Source: an uncultured Helicobacter sp. (GTDB lineage Bacteria; Campylobacterota; Campylobacteria; Campylobacterales; Helicobacteraceae). Taken from it: a DNA stretch of 64,000 bases. Both the position numbers and the translations under genes were made by a program. The notes under the pieces were generated by a model. The model saw only the letters and a list, made by a program, of their open reading frames with translations, ran no database searches and had not been told where the DNA came from. The stretch spans positions 129,806 to 193,805 of the forward strand of contig NZ_CAJTLL010000001.1 in NCBI RefSeq assembly GCF_910577135.1, given 5' to 3'. Positions 29,390 to 64,000 of this stretch are shown piece after piece. Positions within the stretch are counted from its first letter, which is position 1. Every line of letters starts with the position of its first letter.

Positions 29390-29974
29390 TGAGACAATGC
29401 TTTAGCTTTTGTGTCTGCATAGCTTTATCATATAGCCCTATTTTTTAGAGCACTTCATCTTGTAGAGCAAAACTTACAAATACCTAAAAAGCAGACTTTA
29501 GCTAAAGCTAATGCTTTACTATCATAGCGTTTGCAAATATAGCTTCACATTTTGTTTCTTTTGCTGTGCGGATATATTATCCCCCTCCTTTTGGAGATTA
29601 CCTTGCCTTGCCTTTCTTTTCTCCACTCCTTAAGAGAGATTCCTTTCTCTATTCCCCCTCCCACAAGGGAAGGGGCTTTTTTGTTCTCCTTCTATTATAG
29701 AGTTTATATTGTTTTATCCTCCCTTGCAGAATTTCTTTCACCTTTTGTTCCCCCCCTCCCAAAGCGAAGGGGGTTAGGGGATGGGAATAAAAATATATTT
29801 AATTAAAGAGAGTAGGAGAATTTAAAGTCTTTCCCCTTAAGTGAAGCATATCGTTGAATCGGGGGGGGGATATATTCAAACGTGGGTAGTGTGTGGGAGG
29901 AAGATCTTAAAGATTCTAAGCAAAGAGAGAAAGCGTTTTGCATTTTTATAGTTTTCTATAAAAATTAAGCGGTA
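29390..29974. other. 585-base convergent intergenic region with C/G-rich repeats
   Basis: No supportable gene. It holds several runs of the type CCCCCTCC(C) paired with GGGAGGGG-like arms (near 29580, 29654, 29754), a G9 tract at 29861-29869, and AT-rich filler. An 84-codon open frame (29552-29806) is rich in Pro, Arg and Gly from the repeats and is not believable as a protein. Confidence 0.6.
29654..29682 (+). terminator. C/G-rich hairpin with T run
   Basis: CCCCCTCCC-ACAA-GGGAAGGGG forms a nine-pair stem with one mismatch, followed by C and six Ts. It looks like a rho-independent terminator or a dispersed hairpin repeat, although the nearest + strand gene ended about 265 bases earlier. Confidence 0.45.
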
Positions 29975-45013: not shown

Positions 45014-45190
45014 AGGTATATATGCCGATAAAAGAGGAGTATTGGCAAAATGTGTCTTACTGCTTCAATAGATGTAAAAGGTGGCTATCCCCCCCCTCCC
45101 TCCCGCTCAAAGATATATCTCTCACCCTCCAGCCAATGGAGGGGAACTATCCATTACGCTATAATTCCATCTGTAAGGAAGCTAGAACAA

Positions 45191-54925: not shown

Positions 54926-56398
54926 TTAAAAGAGGGGTTTATCCATTTCTTGCGGGATTGGTAATCCCATCACTTTGAGCACACTAGGAGCGATATTGTT
55001 TAGCCCACCATTATTAAGCTTACTCACACCATCAGCAAGACAAAAGCACCATACCTGCCCAACCGTGTGATTTGTGAGGATATTTCCCTCCTCATCTCTC
55101 ATCTCCTCACAATTCCCGTGATCGCTTGTGATAAAAAGCCCATAATGATGAGCCTTAGCAGATTCTATAATTTTCCCTAATGCCGTATCTACCGCCTCTA
55201 CCGCCTCTACCGCCGCTTCAAAATTACCCGTATGCCCCACCATATCGCCATTAGCAAAATTCACTACGATAAAATCATAGCTCTCCTCTATGCCCTTTAA
55301 CACTTCATCACATACCTGTGGTGCGCTCATTTCAGGCATTGTATCATAGGTTTTGACATTAGGAGAGGGGATTAGCACACGATGTTCCCCTGCAAACTCC
55401 GCCTCACGTCCGCCATTAAGAAAGAATGTTACGTGAGCGTATTTCTCTGTCTCTGCGGTGTGAAGCTGCCTCAAATGATGTATAGAAATAACTTCTGCAA
55501 GGGTGTTTTGCACCTTTTGTTTAGGGAAAAGTATAGGATAGGTGAAAGTAGCATCATATTCTGTCATTGTAGCAATGCGGAGATTCACTACTTTTGAACG
55601 TTCAAACCCTGTAAAATGTGGATTCCCTAGCGCATCGACAATCTCCCTCGCCCTATCAGAACGGAAGTTAATAAAGATAAAGCCCTCATTATCATTCATA
55701 CCGCTAAAGCCCTCAAAACTCGCAGGAGTGATAAATTCATCAAAAATACCCTCCTCATACATAGAGTGCACATATTCTTGCGGGGAGAGCGATGTGGGAT
55801 TAGTCCCCATTACCATACTTTCATACGCCTTTTGCACCCTCTCCCATCGCTTATCTCTATCCATCGCATAGAATCGCCCACAAAGAGTCGCTATCCGCAC
55901 AGATTCACTGCAAAGTCCCTGTATCTCATCGATAAATGTTATTGCGCTTTGTGGAAGGACATCGCGCCCATCGGTGATAAGATGAAGATATACTTTTTTA
56001 TGCTGTGCAGATAGAATCTGTATAAGTGCCTTAAAATGTGATATATGCGAATGCACCCCACCATCGCTTAGCAATCCACATAAATGCACAATATTTTGAT
56101 GCTCTGTGGCGTGAAGAAAAGCGGGATTATCTTGGATTTGCTTATCCTCAATGGCGCGGGAGATTCTCACTAGGTCTTGGTATAACACTCGCCCTGAGCC
56201 AATACACATATGTCCCACTTCCGAATTGCCCATTTGCCCTTGAGGTAACCCCACACTCAAGCCAAAGGTATCAATCATACTATAAGGCACATTTTTAAAA
56301 AGATAATCATAGGTTGGTTTTTTAGCGTGATGGAAGGCATTATATTGGGTTTGCTGGCTATATCCTATGCCATCAGTAATCACAAGAATTGTTTTCAT
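54926..56398 (-). CDS. gpmI: 2,3-bisphosphoglycerate-independent phosphoglycerate mutase
   Basis: A 490-residue Mn-dependent mutase interconverting 2- and 3-phosphoglycerate. TDGIGYSQQ holds the first metal Asp, and [16 protein letters not shown] has the catalytic Ser. [37 protein letters not shown] and [12 protein letters not shown] complete the metal sites. The ATG at 56398 begins [10 protein letters not shown] as in relatives; the upstream Met adds 12 unconserved residues. Confidence 0.96.
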
Positions 56399-56519
56399 AA
56401 GCATTCCTTTACAGAGAGATTTAGCATTAACCAATTGTAGCTAAAATCAAAAACCTTTCATTAAACTCACTTTAAAATCCCTAGCTTTATGCTTAAAGCT
56501 TATAGGATAAAGGATTGCT

Positions 56520-57599
56520 ATGCTTTATTGGCTCTATCAACACTTTGGTATTAATATCTTTTTTTATATTACGTTCCGTGCGGGGGTGGCATTTTTCTTA
56601 GCTTTTGGATTTAGTATCGTGCTTATGCCTTATTTTATCAAATGGGCGAAGGCAAAAAAGGCTAATCAGCCCATCTCTACTTATGTAGCTGCACACGAGG
56701 GCAAGAAAAATACCCCGACAATGGGCGGAATCGTCTTTATCGCTAGTATGGTTGTAGCCTCTTTGCTCTGTGCGAATCTCTTTAACCCCTATGTGATTTT
56801 GGGGCTATTTTGCATTGTGAGTTTTAGCCTTATTGGTGCAAGAGATGATTATATGAAAATCTCACGCAAAAATAATGCCGGAATGAGCGCGAAAATGAAG
56901 TTTTTTCTGCTTTTTGTTGCTTCACTTATCATTACTGCCGCGCTTTTATATATAGGGCATAATACCAATCTCTACATTCCCTTTATGAAGTATCCTATCT
57001 TTGATATGAGTGCATTAAGGATAATGGATATTCCCTTTATCGCTTTGGGCTTTTGGATTCTCGTATTTTTGGCTACGAGTAATGCAGTAAATATCACCGA
57101 TGGGCTTGATGGATTAGCCACAGTGCCTAGTATTTGCGCGCTTTGTTCGCTCTCTGTTTTTGTATATGTAGCCGGACACGCTGGATTCTCCGGCTATTTG
57201 TTATGGCCTAAAGTCGTAGATAGCGGGGAATTAGTCATTCTCTCTGTGGCACTCATCGGCGCACTCTTTGGCTTTTTGTGGTATAACTGCCACCCCGCAC
57301 AAGTCTTTATGGGAGATAGCGGAAGCCTCGCTCTTGGAGCATTTATAGCCTTTATGGCAATCGTTTCTAATAATGAGATTCTACTCTTACTCATTGGCAT
57401 TATTTTTGTCATCGAAGCCCTCTCCGTGATTTTACAAGTATGGAGCTACAAATACAGACAAAAGCGTATCTTTGCGATGGCACCTATTCACCATCATTTT
57501 GAAGTGCGCGGCTGGGCAGAAAATAAAATTATCGTGCGGTTTTGGATCATTGCAATTTTGGCAAATCTCATCGCGCTTTTAAGTATCAAGATCCGTTAA
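56520..57599 (+). CDS. mraY: Phospho-N-acetylmuramoyl-pentapeptide transferase
   Basis: A 359-residue MraY with ten predicted helices. It transfers phospho-MurNAc-pentapeptide to undecaprenyl phosphate, giving lipid I. Signature sites are [26 protein letters not shown] and [13 protein letters not shown] with catalytic Asps, and [13 protein letters not shown]. It precedes murD by 24 bases, as in H. pylori (HP0493-HP0494). Confidence 0.97.
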
Positions 57600-57623
57600 T
57601 TTAGCATTGCATAAGGAGGCTAA

Positions 57624-58883
57624 ATGCGTATAAGTATCTTTGGCTATGGCATTACGACCACGCCTCTTGTAGCATTTCTCAACCAAAAGGGGCATAAGCT
57701 CCATATTTATGATGATAAGTTTAATTCTATAAAAAATGATGATAAAGGCAATGTTTTGCTGCCCTCATCGCATTTTGAGCCACTTCAAAGCGATATGGAG
57801 ATTCTAAGTCCGGGCATTCCGCCTAGCCACCCTCTTATCCATAAGGCAAAGCACCCCATTAGCGAATATGATTATTTTGATATGCTTTTAAAGGCGGATT
57901 CACAAGCAAGCATACAAATGCCCTATATGATATGGATAAGCGGGACTAATGGCAAAACCACAACCACAGAGATGAGCACATTACTTTTAGAATCTTTTGG
58001 CGCACAAAGCGGAGGGAATATCGGCACACCTTTGGCAACTCTTTATGAGCAAAAACCCAAAGTATGGGTGCTAGAGACAAGCTCCTTTACTTTGCATTAC
58101 ACACACAAAGCCACCCCACATATCTACGCCCTCTTGCCCGTGAGGGAAGATCACATCAGCTGGCATGGGAGCTTTGAGGCTTATATTGATGATAAGCTAA
58201 GCCCTTTAACGCGTATGGATTCAAAGAGTGTTGCCATTATCCCCACTGCGCTTAAAAACCATCGCTTTGTGCAGGATTTTAGCGGAACTTTGATAGATTA
58301 TGAGGGGAGCGTGGATTTAAGCCAAAAATGTGGCATTGCCCTGCAAGATATTGTCTTTAAAGAGCCGTTTTTGCTCGATGCGCTTATTGCTCTAAGTATC
58401 GCTAAATATGCCTTTAAGGCAGATAACATCGCGCTTTTAAATCGCTTTAGCATTGGCAAACACAGAATCGCAGAATTTTATGATAAATATAAACGTCTGT
58501 GGGTAGATGATAGCAAGGGAACAAATGTCGATGCGACTATTCAGGCTATCGCTCGTTACACACATACGCATATTATGCTAATCCTTGGAGGTGATGATAA
58601 GGGGGCAAATCTCACGCCACTTTTTGAATTTATGCAGGGGAAGGATATTGAGATTTTTAGCATTGGGACAAATGAGGCGCGATTAGTTGCATTTGCAAAG
58701 GAATACAAGATTCCCATTACACCTTGTGGGAATATATATAAAGCAATGGAATCTATTAAGAATAAACGCACAAAAAATGCTAAAGATATAGTTTTGCTCT
58801 CTCCTGCTGCTGCAAGTTTAGACCAATTTAGCTCATATAAAGAGCGAGGAGAAATTTTCACACAACTTGCCCTGCGGGAGTAA
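57624..58883 (+). CDS. murD: UDP-N-acetylmuramoylalanine-D-glutamate ligase
   Basis: A 419-residue Mur ligase. IFGYGITTTPLVAFL starts the UDP-binding domain, WISGTNGKTTTTEM is the ATP loop, LETSSFTLHY and LLPVREDHISWHG are central motifs, and VDDSKGTNVDATIQAI lies in the C-terminal domain. It adds D-Glu to UDP-MurNAc-L-Ala before MraY acts. AAGGAGG precedes the ATG. The following DNA is the decayed RM locus. Confidence 0.97.
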   Translation: MRISIFGYGITTTPLVAFLNQKGHKLHIYDDKFNSIKNDDKGNVLLPSSHFEPLQSDMEILSPGIPPSHPLIHKAKHPISEYDYFDMLLKADSQASIQMPYMIWISGTNGKTTTTEMSTLLLESFGAQSGGNIGTPLATLYEQKPKVWVLETSSFTLHYTHKATPHIYALLPVREDHISWHGSFEAYIDDKLSPLTRMDSKSVAIIPTALKNHRFVQDFSGTLIDYEGSVDLSQKCGIALQDIVFKEPFLLDALIALSIAKYAFKADNIALLNRFSIGKHRIAEFYDKYKRLWVDDSKGTNVDATIQAIARYTHTHIMLILGGDDKGANLTPLFEFMQGKDIEIFSIGTNEARLVAFAKEYKIPITPCGNIYKAMESIKNKRTKNAKDIVLLSPAAASLDQFSSYKERGEIFTQLALRE

Positions 58884-58986
58884 TATAGAACTTCACATAA
58901 AAAGCAGCAAAGTAGCTTTATATGGCTAAATGTGTCGCTTTTTGAATATATGACAATATAATATTATAATTTATAGGGAGGGCAGT

Positions 58987-59370
58987 ATGCCAAGCATAGA
59001 AGAAACATAGACGACCAAGTCAAACAAGAGCTAGCACACCATCATATCCAATATTTTTATAAAAACAGATGCCATCAATAGCGAAATAGAACAGGCTTTA
59101 CGCAAATACCCTAGCAAAAGTGGAGGCAGCGGGAGGAATTATCCTGATATTAAGCTTTTCTTACATACAAGCGAATTGAGAAAAATCCCTGTGATGATAG
59201 AGAGGTTAAGACACAAAGGATAAATTAAAATTCCAAAAAACAGGCGATGAGGTCAAAAACACCAATGATAAAGGCGATTTCAGTTTCAAAAACATAAGCG
59301 AATACGCCCTAAATGGTACGGTGCATTATGATTGCAAAGCTGGTGTAGGTTTGCCCTATTAAAAGACACG
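58987..59370 (+). pseudogene. Remnant of a BcgI-like nuclease N-terminus (duplicate copy)
   Basis: Three frames together read MPSIEET, then QALRKYPSKSGGSGRNYPDI, KIPVMIE, KDKLKFQKTGDEVKNTNDKG and NISEYALNGTVHY. That order fits the PD-(D/E)xK nuclease head of BcgI-like fused RM proteins, with PD at 59143-59148 and the later IE but no following Lys. Stops and shifts break it several times. A second, better-preserved nuclease head of the same type begins at 59411, so this is a truncated tandem copy. Confidence 0.55.
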
Positions 59371-59410
59371 TAATAAAATATCACGGCTAGGATTAAGACA
59401 AAGGATAAAT

Positions 59411-61311
59411 ATGCAGTGGAAAAACGAAGCCGATGTAGATGATTATGTCAAAGGGACTTTTAAGAATCTTGGGCTTAAGAAAAATAAAGATTTTTTTGAA
59501 AAATCAGGCAGTGAGTATCTCAAAAATGCACTTGAGGGCTTTTCTAAGACAAAGGATAAAAGCGGAAAGGAATCCCAGACTTTGCCATAGAAAGCTATCA
59601 AATTCCTATTTTAATTGAAAGCAAACTTGGGCTTAAGAGATTAGAAAGCAGAAAAGAAAATGAGCTTAAATTTGATGATAATGCTATCTCAAGTTGTGCT
59701 TTTAATGGGGCTTTACATTATGCAATGGGCGTGATAAAAAACAATAAATACAAAGAAGTCATTGTTATAGGTATAGCAGGAGACAATGAAGAAAATGTTA
59801 GTTTTAAAGTTGCTTATGTTTTTGGTGCTTCTTCTTTAGCTTTTAAAGAGATTGTAAGTCAAAATTTAGATTTTTTAGAAAACAAAAAGAGCTTTGAGAG
59901 TTTTTATGCATGAAAAAGCGATTTTAAGCGAAGAAGACAAGCATAACATTCTTATTAGAGGTCAATTTAAACTTGAAAGGCATTCCAAAAAGCTTAATAA
60001 ACTCATGCACAATCGCAACATTACCGCCCATCAAAGAGTGCTTTATGCCTCAGGTATGCTCCTTACTATGCAGAGTATAGGAGATAATAGGGGCTTGGAA
60101 ATCGATGATTTAAAAGGCAAACCAAAAACCAGCAACGACAGAGATGGCTTGATATTTTAAGGCAGATTGAAGATTTTTTAAAGACAAAGGTTAAGGATGA
60201 AAGAAAATTGCAGCTAATGCTAGAATCTTTCAAAGAAATTTCAAAAGACGCCGACAGAGACGAAGCACAAAAAGAAAATCATAAAGAAGTCGCCGAATTA
60301 CTCAAAGAACCAAGCTCTATCACAAAGCAAATTTACCTATCTTTATGAATACATTTATAGCGACATTGACGGACTTAAAGGGCATTTAGATATAATGGGA
60401 CAAATGTATAGCGAGTTTTTAAAATATGCTTTAGGTGATGGCAAAGAATTGGGAATCGTCCTTACTCCTCCTTATGTAACCAAAATGATGAGCCAGATTC
60501 TAAAAATCAATCAAGATTCTAGGGTAATGGATCTAGCCACAGGCTCGGCAGGATTTCTCATCTCGGCTATGGAGCTAATGATAGAAGATGCGGAAAAAAT
60601 TTCAGGCAAAGACACGAGCAAAACAGAAGCAAAAATCACACATATTAAAAAGAATCAGCTCTTAGGCGTGGAGCTTAATGCAGAAATGTTCGTCCTAGCC
60701 ACCACGAATATGATTTTACGCGGCGATGGCTCAAGTAGAATAGAAAAGGCAAATACCTTTGATACTCCGCCCAGCCTTTATAGCGATTTTAACGCAGATA
60801 GAATCTTGCTTAATCCTCCCTTTACTTATAGCGAAATGTGAGTAATCCTAAAATTTTAGAAAAGCACCCTTTAAAAGCGAGTATTAAAATGCCTGTGGAT
60901 TTGTTTGAACCTATGGCAAGTGTGCAAACAAGTATTTATGTCTTTGAAGCGGGAATCCCGCACGATTTTAATCAAGTGGTAAAATTTATTGATTTTAGAA
61001 ATGACGGCTATAAACGCACAAAGCGAAAATTACAAGACAAAGACCACGCAAAATGGCGTTACCAAGACATCATAGAAATTTATAAAAATGGCTACAAAGC
61101 AAGACTACAAGCTAAGTGGAATTTAGATGAAATCTATGTAGAAGATTATATTGATAAAAGCGGAGCGGATTGGAATTTTGACCAGCATAAAATAATCGAT
61201 ACTAAGCCCACATTAGCGGATTTTAAAAAATGCGTGAGCGAATATTTAGCGTGGGAAGTAAGCAATGTGCTGAAAAATACCAATAAGGAGAAAGAGCCAA
61301 ATTTTCACTAA
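59411..61311 (+). pseudogene. Broken BcgI-like fused restriction-modification subunit
   Basis: Read across frames, the ancestral protein had a nuclease head (GIPDFAIESYQIPILIESK: catalytic PD, E and K), a helical linker (LMHNRNITAHQRVLYASGML), and an N6-adenine methylase domain (GIVLTPPYVTKMM, VMDLATGSAGFLISAMEL, LLGVELNAEMF, ILLNPPF motif IV). It ends with a C-terminal part including ASIKMPVDLFEPMASVQTSI. The frame changes near 59569, 59910, 60150, 60340 and 60838. At the last break, motif IV is joined to a later segment as if about 30-40 codons were lost. No full product can be made. Confidence 0.78.
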
Positions 61312-61319
61312 GCCCCCGT

Positions 61320-62045
61320 TTGGCAGAGCTTGAAAAAACATTCAAGCAAAATGGGGGCGAATGGAAGGAATTTCGAATCGGGGATTTGTTTATTTCTTAT
61401 AATGGCGATTTTGACATACAAAAAACGCATTTAAACGATAGGGGTTTTTATGTGGTAAGTTCAGGCGAACAAAATATGGGTATCATAGGCAAAACAGATC
61501 TAGAAGCTAGAATTTTTCCTAAAAATACCATAACTTGCGATATGTTTGGAAATGTGTATTATAGAAATTTTGATTATAAAATGGTTACTCACGCTAGGGT
61601 ATTTTGCCTTGAATTTATAGCTGGAAATTTAAATGAAAAAATCGCTTTGTTTATCATTTCTGCAATGAAATTTCTACGCTTTAAATTTCAATATTCTAAT
61701 ATGGCAAGTTGGAGAAAAATACAAGATTTGACAATCTCCCTCCCTGTATATAATCCCGCTCGTCATTGCGAGGACGACAGGACGAAGCGATCCATAGAAA
61801 TCAATAAAATGGATTGCCACGATTCTGCTACCGCAGAATCTCGCAATGACAACAAGGACAAAAACTATACTATCGCCTTTGATTTTATGGAAAAGTATAT
61901 CCAAGAACTCGAGGCGTATCTTTTAGTAGCTAGACTAAAAGATACAAGGCTTACAGAAAAAGAAAAAGAAGCTTTGCGAATCTTCGCAACGCTTGAAGAT
62001 TCTGCAATTCGGGGGGGGGGGGGTAGAATCCTCTCCGCTGCTTGA
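61320..62045 (+). CDS. Specificity subunit, first half (phase-variable split)
   Basis: A 241-codon frame from a TTG at 61320 encoding the first target-recognition domain (WKEFRIGDLFISYNGDFDI to TISLPVYNP) and its helical spacer (IAFDFMEKYIQELEAYL). It is the S partner of the broken subunit upstream. It contains an 89-base palindromic insertion at 61762-61850 that is translated as about 35 extra residues between TISLPVYNP and IAFDF. It ends soon after a G13 tract, which throws the reader out of frame before the second domain. Confidence 0.75.
   Translation: MAELEKTFKQNGGEWKEFRIGDLFISYNGDFDIQKTHLNDRGFYVVSSGEQNMGIIGKTDLEARIFPKNTITCDMFGNVYYRNFDYKMVTHARVFCLEFIAGNLNEKIALFIISAMKFLRFKFQYSNMASWRKIQDLTISLPVYNPARHCEDDRTKRSIEINKMDCHDSATAESRNDNKDKNYTIAFDFMEKYIQELEAYLLVARLKDTRLTEKEKEALRIFATLEDSAIRGGGGRILSAA
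61762..61850. repeat. Palindromic (REP/RPE-like) element inserted in the specificity gene
   Basis: An 89-base element with perfect 11-base inverted termini (GTCATTGCGAG and CTCGCAATGAC) and an inner GATTCTGC-TACC-GCAGAATC hairpin. It lies in frame inside the first half of the S gene. The second half lacks it at the matching point (ISLPVYQNNQIAFDF), which shows it is an insertion. Confidence 0.8.
62011..62023 (+). repeat. G13 homopolymer tract
   Basis: Thirteen consecutive G residues within the specificity gene between its two target-recognition domains. Such tracts slip during replication in Helicobacter and Campylobacter. Losing one G, or gaining two, would join the two halves in one frame. 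Confidence 0.9.
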
Positions 62046-62604
62046 GCGTGAAAATTTTGCAAACATCAAATGGTGGGAATTTCAGCTCGGTGAGCTGTTT
62101 GAGATTTTTACAGGTAGAGATGTGATTATAGGAAATATGGAAAGTGGAGATATTCCTTTAATTAGCCATCAAAATACAAACAATGGAGTAGCAAAATATA
62201 TTAAAAGATTAGAGCATAGATGCCTTTTTAATTATAGAAATACTGTCGCACTTGCTGACAGGGGTGTTTTTTATGCGACAACACACAATCAAAACTTTCA
62301 TATAAGAACAAGAGTGAAAGCTTTAGTATTTAAGGAAAAAAATATAAGTAGGAATATAAGATTGTTTTTCGTAGTAGCTATTAATAGATTACAAATTAAA
62401 TTTATAGAATATTCGGCAAATGCTACCGATAAATTATCTAATGAAAGAATCTCCCTCCCCGTGTATCAAAACAACCAAATCGCCTTTGATTTTATGGAAG
62501 ATTTCATCAAATCCATAGAAAAAGCCCATATTGATAATATTTATAGATTCTGGCAAAACAAATTATCAGCTTATAAAGATGTCGTTGCAGGTAGCGGGGG
62601 TTGA
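62024..62604 (+). pseudogene. Specificity subunit, second half (out of frame)
   Basis: The second target-recognition domain and spacer (WWEFQLGELFEIFTGRDVIIG, then RISLPVYQNNQIAFDFMEDF) lie in a different frame from the first half. There is no independent ribosome site or good start. The domain mirrors the first half in order of motifs, as expected for the two-domain S protein of type IIB/BcgI-like systems. It is expressed only when the G13 tract changes length. Confidence 0.72.
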
Positions 62605-62622
62605 TACAAGAATCCCATCTCT

Positions 62623-62655
62623 TGTTGAGGTTTCGCACCTTGCAGGTGTTCAACA
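62623..62655. terminator. Nested hairpin between RM locus and adh
   Basis: TGTTGA...TCAACA encloses CACCT-TGC-AGGTG. It sits in the convergent gap after the specificity gene and before the end of the dehydrogenase gene, so it may end transcripts from either side. There is no T run. Confidence 0.35.
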
Positions 62656-62687
62656 TGACATAGGTGCAGATATTTCATGCATTGCTC

Positions 62688-63785
62688 CTAAGCTTTCAAA
62701 CTACTCATATCAATCACATAGCGGAATTTTGCCTTGCCTGTGGTGAGGTTTGTATAAGCCTCATTAATATCATTAACGCTAATAACCTCTGTTTCGGGGT
62801 AGATTCTATGTTTGAGTGAGAAATCTAGCATTTCTTGCGTCTCTTTAATGCCCCCAATGAGTGAGCCATAGACCTTTTTACCCGCAGAAAATACAAGACG
62901 TGCTACATCAATATGCGTTTTTAGCTCCGCAGGAGGCAACCCGACAATCGCCATTTCACCCCCAAAGGCAAGCAAATCCACATAATCATTCACATTATAA
63001 GCAGTAGGAATAGTAGAGATGATAAAATCAAATCTCTCCTTTACATCTTTTAGCCTATCAGTCGTGTATAGGGCTTTTGCACCAAGTGCTAAGGCTTCTT
63101 TTTCCTTATTTTTATTACGGGCAAATACGCTCACCTCCGCACCCATTTGCAATGCGTATTTTAAAGCCATTACACCAAGTCCGCCAAACCCAGCTACTGC
63201 GACCTTATCGCCGCCTTTGACATTGCTAAATTTAATAGGTGAATATGTCGTAATCCCCGCACACAGCAAGGGAGCGACTTTCTCTAATGACGCATCTTTT
63301 GGGACGCAAATAGCAAATTTTTCATTCACCACGATATTATTGGAATAGCCTCCATAAGTGGGGGCGTTATTATGAAAGCAATCAAGGCAATCATATGTGA
63401 AAACCACTTTGCCGTTCTCACAAAACTGCTCTTGGGATTTCTTACATGCCGCACATTCCCCGCAAGAATTGACCATACAGCCCACGCCCGCATAATCACC
63501 GACTTTGAACTTACTCACCTTGCTCCCCACAGCCACGACCTTTCCGGCTATTTCGTGTCCGGGCACCATAGGGTAAATGCCCTTCCTCCATTCACTTCGT
63601 GCGGAATGTATATCGCTATGGCAGATTCCAGCATAGAGAATCTCTATGAAAATATCATATTCGCCCATAGTATGACGTTTGAAGCTAAAGGGCTTAAAGG
63701 TATCATCTTTATGCGCCACAGCATAGCCTAGCGCGTCTATCTCCGCACCGCTTGTAGCTTGAGTGAGATTATCTTTTAATAACAT
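62688..63785 (-). CDS. Zinc-dependent NAD(P) alcohol dehydrogenase (YahK/cinnamyl type)
   Basis: About 365 residues. Catalytic zinc ligands are in AGICHSDIHS and VPGHEIAG; the structural zinc site is CGECAACKKSQEQFC. The cofactor site is VAGFGGLGVMALKYA, and the downstream VFARNKNKE favours NADP. Relatives reduce aldehydes. The ATG at 63785 is preferred because AAGGAG lies before it; an earlier in-frame start adds 23 unconserved residues. It ends just after the decayed RM locus. Confidence 0.92.
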   Translation of the reverse strand: MLLKDNLTQATSGAEIDALGYAVAHKDDTFKPFSFKRHTMGEYDIFIEILYAGICHSDIHSARSEWRKGIYPMVPGHEIAGKVVAVGSKVSKFKVGDYAGVGCMVNSCGECAACKKSQEQFCENGKVVFTYDCLDCFHNNAPTYGGYSNNIVVNEKFAICVPKDASLEKVAPLLCAGITTYSPIKFSNVKGGDKVAVAGFGGLGVMALKYALQMGAEVSVFARNKNKEKEALALGAKALYTTDRLKDVKERFDFIISTIPTAYNVNDYVDLLAFGGEMAIVGLPPAELKTHIDVARLVFSAGKKVYGSLIGGIKETQEMLDFSLKHRIYPETEVISVNDINEAYTNLTTGKAKFRYVIDMSSLKA

Positions 63786-64000
63786 AACAACTCCTTGTTT
63801 GGGAAACTTTAAAATTGCAATTATAATACCTAACACCAAGTGTTTGTCAAGCATACGTAGAGAAAAGTTAAGATAAATGCGTGGTAAAAGCCATTGTGAT
63901 AGAAAAGATGAAAAGGCAAATCGTGGCAGAGAGGAAGGGATTCGATAAATATTGTTTATAATTCCCTCATATAGGGATTAAGGTTTCTTTTGTCCCCAAT

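Follow-up and report, generated by a model that had tools for sequence, protein, structure and literature searches.

A poly-G tract between two target-recognition domains of a BcgI-like specificity subunit in an uncultured Helicobacter: a probable slippage switch in a locus that looks like a decaying relic

In a 64,000-nt stretch of DNA from an uncultured Helicobacter (hereafter, the window), a run of G residues separates the two target-recognition domains (TRDs) of a specificity (S) subunit gene (Table 1). We consider it very probable that the S gene belongs to a BcgI-like restriction-modification (R-M) system (Type IIB, also filed under Type IIG with a separate S subunit) and is phase-variable, this tract serving as its slippage switch, in a locus that in this lineage looks like a decaying relic. 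Replication slippage in the G run, which we infer as the cause of the variation described below, would alter the tract length; at lengths that are multiples of three, TRD1 and TRD2 would be joined in one subunit of ~427 residues, whereas at other lengths, that of the window included, the protein would end just past TRD1, yielding a half subunit of the kind that in Helicobacter pylori acts alone with the nuclease-methylase fusion (RM) protein on a palindromic site. Because the RM partner in cis is broken, the switch would now most likely have little or no effect, unless a paralogous RM protein uses the half subunit.

The tract and the frames that it connects

Both strands of the window contain nine G8-run starts in total, compared with a mean of 0.54 and a maximum of 4 in 100 dinucleotide-preserving shuffles, and the run between the TRDs alone supplies six of the nine; the run is real and beyond chance for this window. 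Two further G/C runs, at 29861-29869 (9) and 45089-45096 (8), are located outside the ORFs listed there.

The first-pass annotation had placed a G13 tract between two TRDs, traced the first frame from 61320 (frame 0) to a stop ending at 62045 and calculated that G12 or G15 would fuse the halves into a protein of about 428 residues, and all of this is borne out. Both S halves match the Pfam Methylase_S (target-recognition) family, in two different frames; the first frame is open, and the second is open across the tract until a stop codon whose last base is 62604. At tract lengths of 12 or 15 G, which are multiples of 3, the two TRDs fall into a single frame of 427 or 428 aa. This frame contains no stop; stops in the fused frame were among the findings that the annotation had named as refuting its reading.

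The starts are less clear. The sole start of the first half is the TTG at 61320, 8 bases after the RM stop codon, and neither ATG nor GTG was found for this frame. The earlier claim that the second domain lacks a start of its own holds in substance: the TTG assigned mechanically in the ORF listing, at 61993, falls within the first half and lacks a ribosome-site match, and a search of the 75 bases before the tract found no start with such a match. A search of PDB by sequence with the first half as query gave no matches, neither half matched NCBIfam, where the methylase piece gave four matches, all far under the cut-offs, and Rfam gave no match over positions 56000-64000 of the window.

Table 1. 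Features of the R-M locus, in window coordinates
Feature	Position	Strand	Evidence
B-type RM N-terminal remnant, broken, ahead of the main RM pseudogene	58987..59362	+	three-frame translation
RM (nuclease-methylase fusion) pseudogene, A-type body with B-type C-terminal tail	59411..61311	+	N6_Mtase E 2.3e-21 at 60395-60838; several broken frames
Junction in the methylase region, where the window lacks 97 bases that G001 has	60836..60837	+	pairwise comparison with L026
S subunit first half, TRD1 and helix, 241 aa with G13, TTG start only	61320..62045	+	Methylase_S E 4e-13; open frame
Palindromic repeat element, in frame within the first half, between TRD1 and the following helix	61756..61858	+	RNA fold -39.3 kcal/mol, z -6.2
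G13 tract between TRD1 and TRD2	62011..62023	+	run counted, exactly 13 G
S subunit second half, TRD2 and helix, frame +1 relative to the first half	62024..62604	+	Methylase_S E 2.5e-11; open frame
G5 ending the second half, at the place of the second tract of H. turcicus (G10, leading to a third TRD)	62596..62600	+	sequences compared by eye

The first half also carries a palindromic repeat element (GTCATTGCGAG...), the 12-base core of which is present in 12 copies in the nearest genome (G001; reversed control, 0) and which presumably resembles the palindromic elements found in Rickettsia genes. One copy resides in the same frame inside a gene of G001 that is Type I hsdS-like by protein match (L028, 1594-2994). 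At the same place, the first cassettes of H. turcicus (L034) and H. valdiviensis (L037) contain other repeat-like segments (CHSEAL..EES), as judged by eye.

A broken, mosaic RM gene

The RM gene adjoins the S gene on its upstream side, and the N6 methylase domain is recognized in the window piece as well as in the open RM genes of relatives. It had been described as broken, and this proved correct: beyond the frame breaks and the missing 97 bases, single bases present in G001 are absent at 59005 and 59565, and the copy of G001 itself at this place (L026, copy A) is likewise spread over several frames. Given that the intact RM gene needed for an enzyme cutting on both sides of its site is found neither in the window nor in G001 copy A, the locus is a degenerate member of the BcgI-like Type IIB/IIG systems. 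A Pfam scan of three RM relatives matched no nuclease family; we take the PD...EVK/ENK residues in RM to be consistent with a PD-(D/E)XK motif, and the RM protein of G006 gave a weak PDB match to an M protein (2okc, E 4e-4).

The locus is flanked by what we take to be murD upstream and, on the opposite strand downstream, by what is presumably an alcohol-dehydrogenase-like gene. A Type I (NgoAV-like) assignment was considered and rejected: the murD-to-S interval holds only RM pieces, with no hsdR-sized frame among ORFs of at least 80 aa, and RM is fused.

Judged by alignment, the RM locus is a mosaic of a B-type N-terminal remnant, an A-type body and B-like last 40 columns, the tail being measured on the G001 copy. 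The remnant reads MPSIEET...INSEIEQALRKYPSKSGGSGRNYPDIKLF...PVMIE and ...FKNISEYALNGTVHY and by eye resembles L033, L031 and L027. Over columns 361-600, L026 is 55-89% identical to the A-type L032 vs 25-60% to its paralogue L027, whereas over the last 40 alignment columns the relation is reversed (82% to L027 vs 43% to L032).

Comparison with known systems

Probable homology of the window's S gene to published H. pylori S proteins is judged from the descriptions in the respective papers and from protein matches to H. pylori specificity subunits (41-44% over 94-97% among the matches listed). The closest parallel is HpyUM032XIII of H. pylori UM032, a BcgI-like Type IIG system in which, as published, an RM fusion is followed by two half S genes; a G12 tract splits S1 from S2, and G11 joins them (PMC4450513). 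The window shows the same plan, that is, a separate S subunit with two TRDs in two frames and a tract at the TRD1-TRD2 junction, the length of which sets the joined or split frame. In HpyUM032XIII, split S1 together with RM methylates CYAN7TRG and the joined form CYAN7TTC, so that both the split/joined switch and the reading of a palindromic site by a half subunit, which the first-pass annotation had put forward as a possibility, have been experimentally demonstrated for a system of this kind; unlike in the window, however, the RM gene there is intact and active (PMC4450513).

Phase variation of S through a homopolymeric G repeat is also described for the BcgI-like pairs HP1471/HP1472 and JHP1364/JHP1365 (Hpy99XXII) of H. 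pylori (PMC3936762). As in the window, 13 G block full translation of HP1471 and JHP1364, and S has no clear start, but these genes are joined at 14 G rather than at 12 or 15; according to that account, JHP1365/JHP1364 methylated TCAN6TRG after changes made by the authors, and HP1472/HP1471 gave no methylation (PMC3936762). Outside Helicobacter, the Type I system NgoAV of Neisseria gonorrhoeae resembles the window in that a poly-G run ending hsdS1 joins or splits two half S genes, with a change in specificity, but is reported to have separate hsdM and hsdR genes and a shorter tract of 6-9 G (PMC9577141). The H. pylori and NgoAV publications therefore establish the switch mechanism for this kind of gene, and the window contributes a further example, one in which the partner is broken. 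Domain movement (DOMO), in which TRDs of an H. pylori Type IIG S gene shift position and a one-TRD form exists, is a further close system, with the difference that in the accessible text of that paper the word homopolymer does not occur and, in section 8, at most two TRDs are named for the Type IIG gene (PMC3077401).

State of the locus in this lineage and alternative explanations

G001, the nearest genome, has 84% of the window's sampled 31-letter words in common with it. At the same place, G001 has G16, which, like the G13 of the window, leaves the gene split; thirteen versus sixteen is a difference between genomes, read from assemblies, and does not change the frame. The third form seen in the lineage is P0001, a 243-aa half form representing a cluster of 84 member sequences, which is the only near-identical protein listed when the joined halves (427 aa) are used as query; it has two additional residues, Ile-Asn, following the glycines, which suggests an allele slightly altered directly behind the tract. 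Scoring in this search covered the 7996 candidates with the most shared words, and the 120 best of 2097 matches included no joined form that was near-identical. With only a split near-identical form listed, the lineage seems to be locked in the split configuration, or at any rate yielded no joined allele. Thus, the phase-switch claim stands insofar as the tract length differs between genomes and both states exist in relatives, but at this locus all three lineage forms are split and RM is broken.

These observations bear directly on the possibility that neither gene functions any more and the tract persists as a passive, slippage-prone remnant, a reading to which we give about an even chance. 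It is favored by the several RM lesions in both genomes, with further ones in the window, by the TTG-only start of S and by the uniformly split lineage forms; against it, both S halves have remained open, the tract being the only site in them at which the window and G001 differ by an indel, although the two genomes are too close for this to carry much weight. For the interpretation of the tract as a slippage switch, the same lack of a joined lineage form among the proteins listed, the unchanged frame between 13 and 16, and the absence of ATG or GTG starts in S count against it. The RM lesions, the TTG-only start and the failure to find a joined near-identical protein among those listed suggest that the switch, if such it is, is probably idle in the window.

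The half subunit could also still be used in trans by a paralogous RM protein, in which case the tract would switch the methylase specificity of another locus. The first-pass annotation had suggested searching for another intact modification subunit, and the nearest genome does contain a second, B-type RM gene (near C1:280-283 kb) next to a split S gene with a G17 tract. Its RM frame is open over 620 aa, including the N6_Mtase domain, but breaks near residue 37. Use in trans would fit with the B-likeness of the RM tail (82% at the protein level) and of the S helix region to this paralogue, which at the nucleotide level amounts to 84% over 224 bases and 75% over 246 bases, and with the distant S subunits reported to serve one methylase in H. 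pylori Type I systems (PMC3936762). However, recombination between copies accounts for this likeness without any function, and the paralogue is known from G001, not from the strain of the window; together with the frame break, this makes use in trans unlikely in our assessment.

Long G runs are prone to miscounting. This is what would speak for G13 being a sequencing or assembly artefact of a gene fixed in the joined form, an explanation we find highly improbable given the runs at the same place in G001, in its paralogue and in many other assemblies, both joined and split, and the split G13 genes described from SMRT-sequenced H. pylori strains (PMC3936762).

Distribution of the tract among relatives

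An RM alignment was scanned against GTDB genomes, and the best 80 of 507 confirmed matches were taken as loci; among 398 Campylobacterales genomes searched, RM was present in 52 (E up to 1e-60), and 53 downstream stretches were taken. TRDs were detected with a profile built from ten cassettes, eight of them from Helicobacter and all ten from loci later counted, and divergent TRDs could therefore have been missed. The linker tally is free of the duplicates L034, L035, L038 and L060 and of loci in which the profile detected at most one TRD (4 of 34 in Helicobacteraceae, 5 of 34 in other Campylobacterales and 10 of 66 in other phyla); runs in TRD bodies were counted after removal of 8 and 2 terminal bases.

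The first TRD linker contains a run of at least eight G in 22 of 30 Helicobacteraceae loci, 6 of 29 loci from other Campylobacterales and 5 of 56 from other phyla. Linkers totalling 12,399 nt hold 46 runs of at least eight G, whereas the TRD bodies, with 125,251 nt in total, have no run of this length in either G or C. A continuous joined frame through TRD1 and TRD2 is seen at 14 of the 33 first-linker tracts. It is lacking at the other 19, which include H. heilmannii, N-masked after the tract, and NHP21005 (L062), in which the frames agree but a stop follows 7 bases after the tract; the TRD1 frame stops before the tract in none of the 33. The confinement of the runs to linkers and the tally of joined and split genes therefore indicate that the position of the tract is conserved as part of the TRD joint and that both states exist in the family, while saying nothing on the strain of the window.

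Individual loci illustrate this range: G017 has G13 and is split, with RM open over 679 aa; G006, of the same genus, has G11 and a joined S of 459 aa, with RM open over 676 aa; and G021 has a joined S with no run of at least 7 G, open for 444 codons up to the contig end. The full-length form, the absence of which everywhere the first-pass annotation had named as part of a refutation, exists in relatives, but not as a near-identical protein among the best matches listed. An S frame with no ATG, GTG or TTG between the preceding stop and ~30 bases into TRD1 is seen in 36 of 138 S loci (duplicates kept), in one of which the frame extends to the boundary of the sequence taken.

Another poly-G tract (C16 at 1257-1272) lies close to the end of a 413-aa frame elsewhere in G001 (C1:822500-825000, L029); the gene is Type III mod-like by eye and likely represents another phase-variable methylase of this species.

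Arrays of TRD cassettes

In several relatives, more than two TRDs follow each other downstream of RM. Unexpectedly, gastric Helicobacter have arrays of four or five cassettes with poly-G tracts between them: five TRDs with four tracts in H. vulpis (L041), and four TRDs with three tracts in both H. mehlei (L039) and H. cynogastricus (L042). H. turcicus (L034) has three TRDs and two tracts in a single open frame of 809 codons (a profile count of four was discarded, one match being split), and H. valdiviensis (L037) has three TRDs and one tract. Compared with H. mehlei, H. vulpis has one extra cassette together with its tract, and the breakpoint falls not within the tract but before it, in a helix-coding stretch of ~113 bases that is alike in both copies. 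Similar cassettes also occupy shifted positions: T1 of the G001 paralogue resembles T2 of H. cynogastricus (65%) and T3 of H. vulpis (64%), and T3 of H. mehlei resembles T1 of H. cynogastricus (56%).

All eight later tracts of H. mehlei, H. vulpis, H. cynogastricus and G238 are preceded by a ribosome-site-like motif and an ATG 30-38 bases upstream; the frame of the previous cassette is closed before the ATG in seven of the eight, and the ATG is in frame with its cassette in two and out of frame in six. Before the later tracts of G055, L037, G186 and G282, no such motif and ATG were found (0 of 4), nor before the later tract of H. heilmannii, the upstream side of which is masked. The ribosome-site test also matches within first-linker coding sequence (at ATG in L039, L041 and G238, at TTG and GTG in G055, and at TTG in the G001 paralogue), and a match alone therefore proves no start; internal starts of the later gastric cassettes are nevertheless plausible.

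A broader hypothesis, which we consider tentative and rather doubtful, is that in this family poly-G tracts punctuate arrays of TRD cassettes and do more than turn a gene on or off, with each extra cassette bringing its own tract and, in the gastric species, a ribosome-site-like motif and ATG. Half subunits would then be switched independently, allowing many pairings, cassettes and tracts would be gained and lost as units, and the window would represent a shrunken two-cassette array, the half subunit of which is perhaps lent to a paralogous RM. By comparison with H. turcicus, the GCGGGGG at the end of the window's second half may be a relic of a second tract. A literature search, thin on subscription journals, found nothing on poly-G-separated TRD arrays, only a Type I subunit with three TRDs and the domain movement described in H. 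pylori.

Biological significance

In phase-variable specificity subunits, slippage by a single base changes the sites that are methylated and hence gene expression and phage defence. The locus described here extends the H. pylori type of switch to a further Helicobacter lineage, in which the partner enzyme is dying. Judging from the relatives, the tract may generally act as the joint between TRD cassettes, up to five of which are found in H. vulpis; if this is true, such a joint would mean a combinatorial methylation switch.
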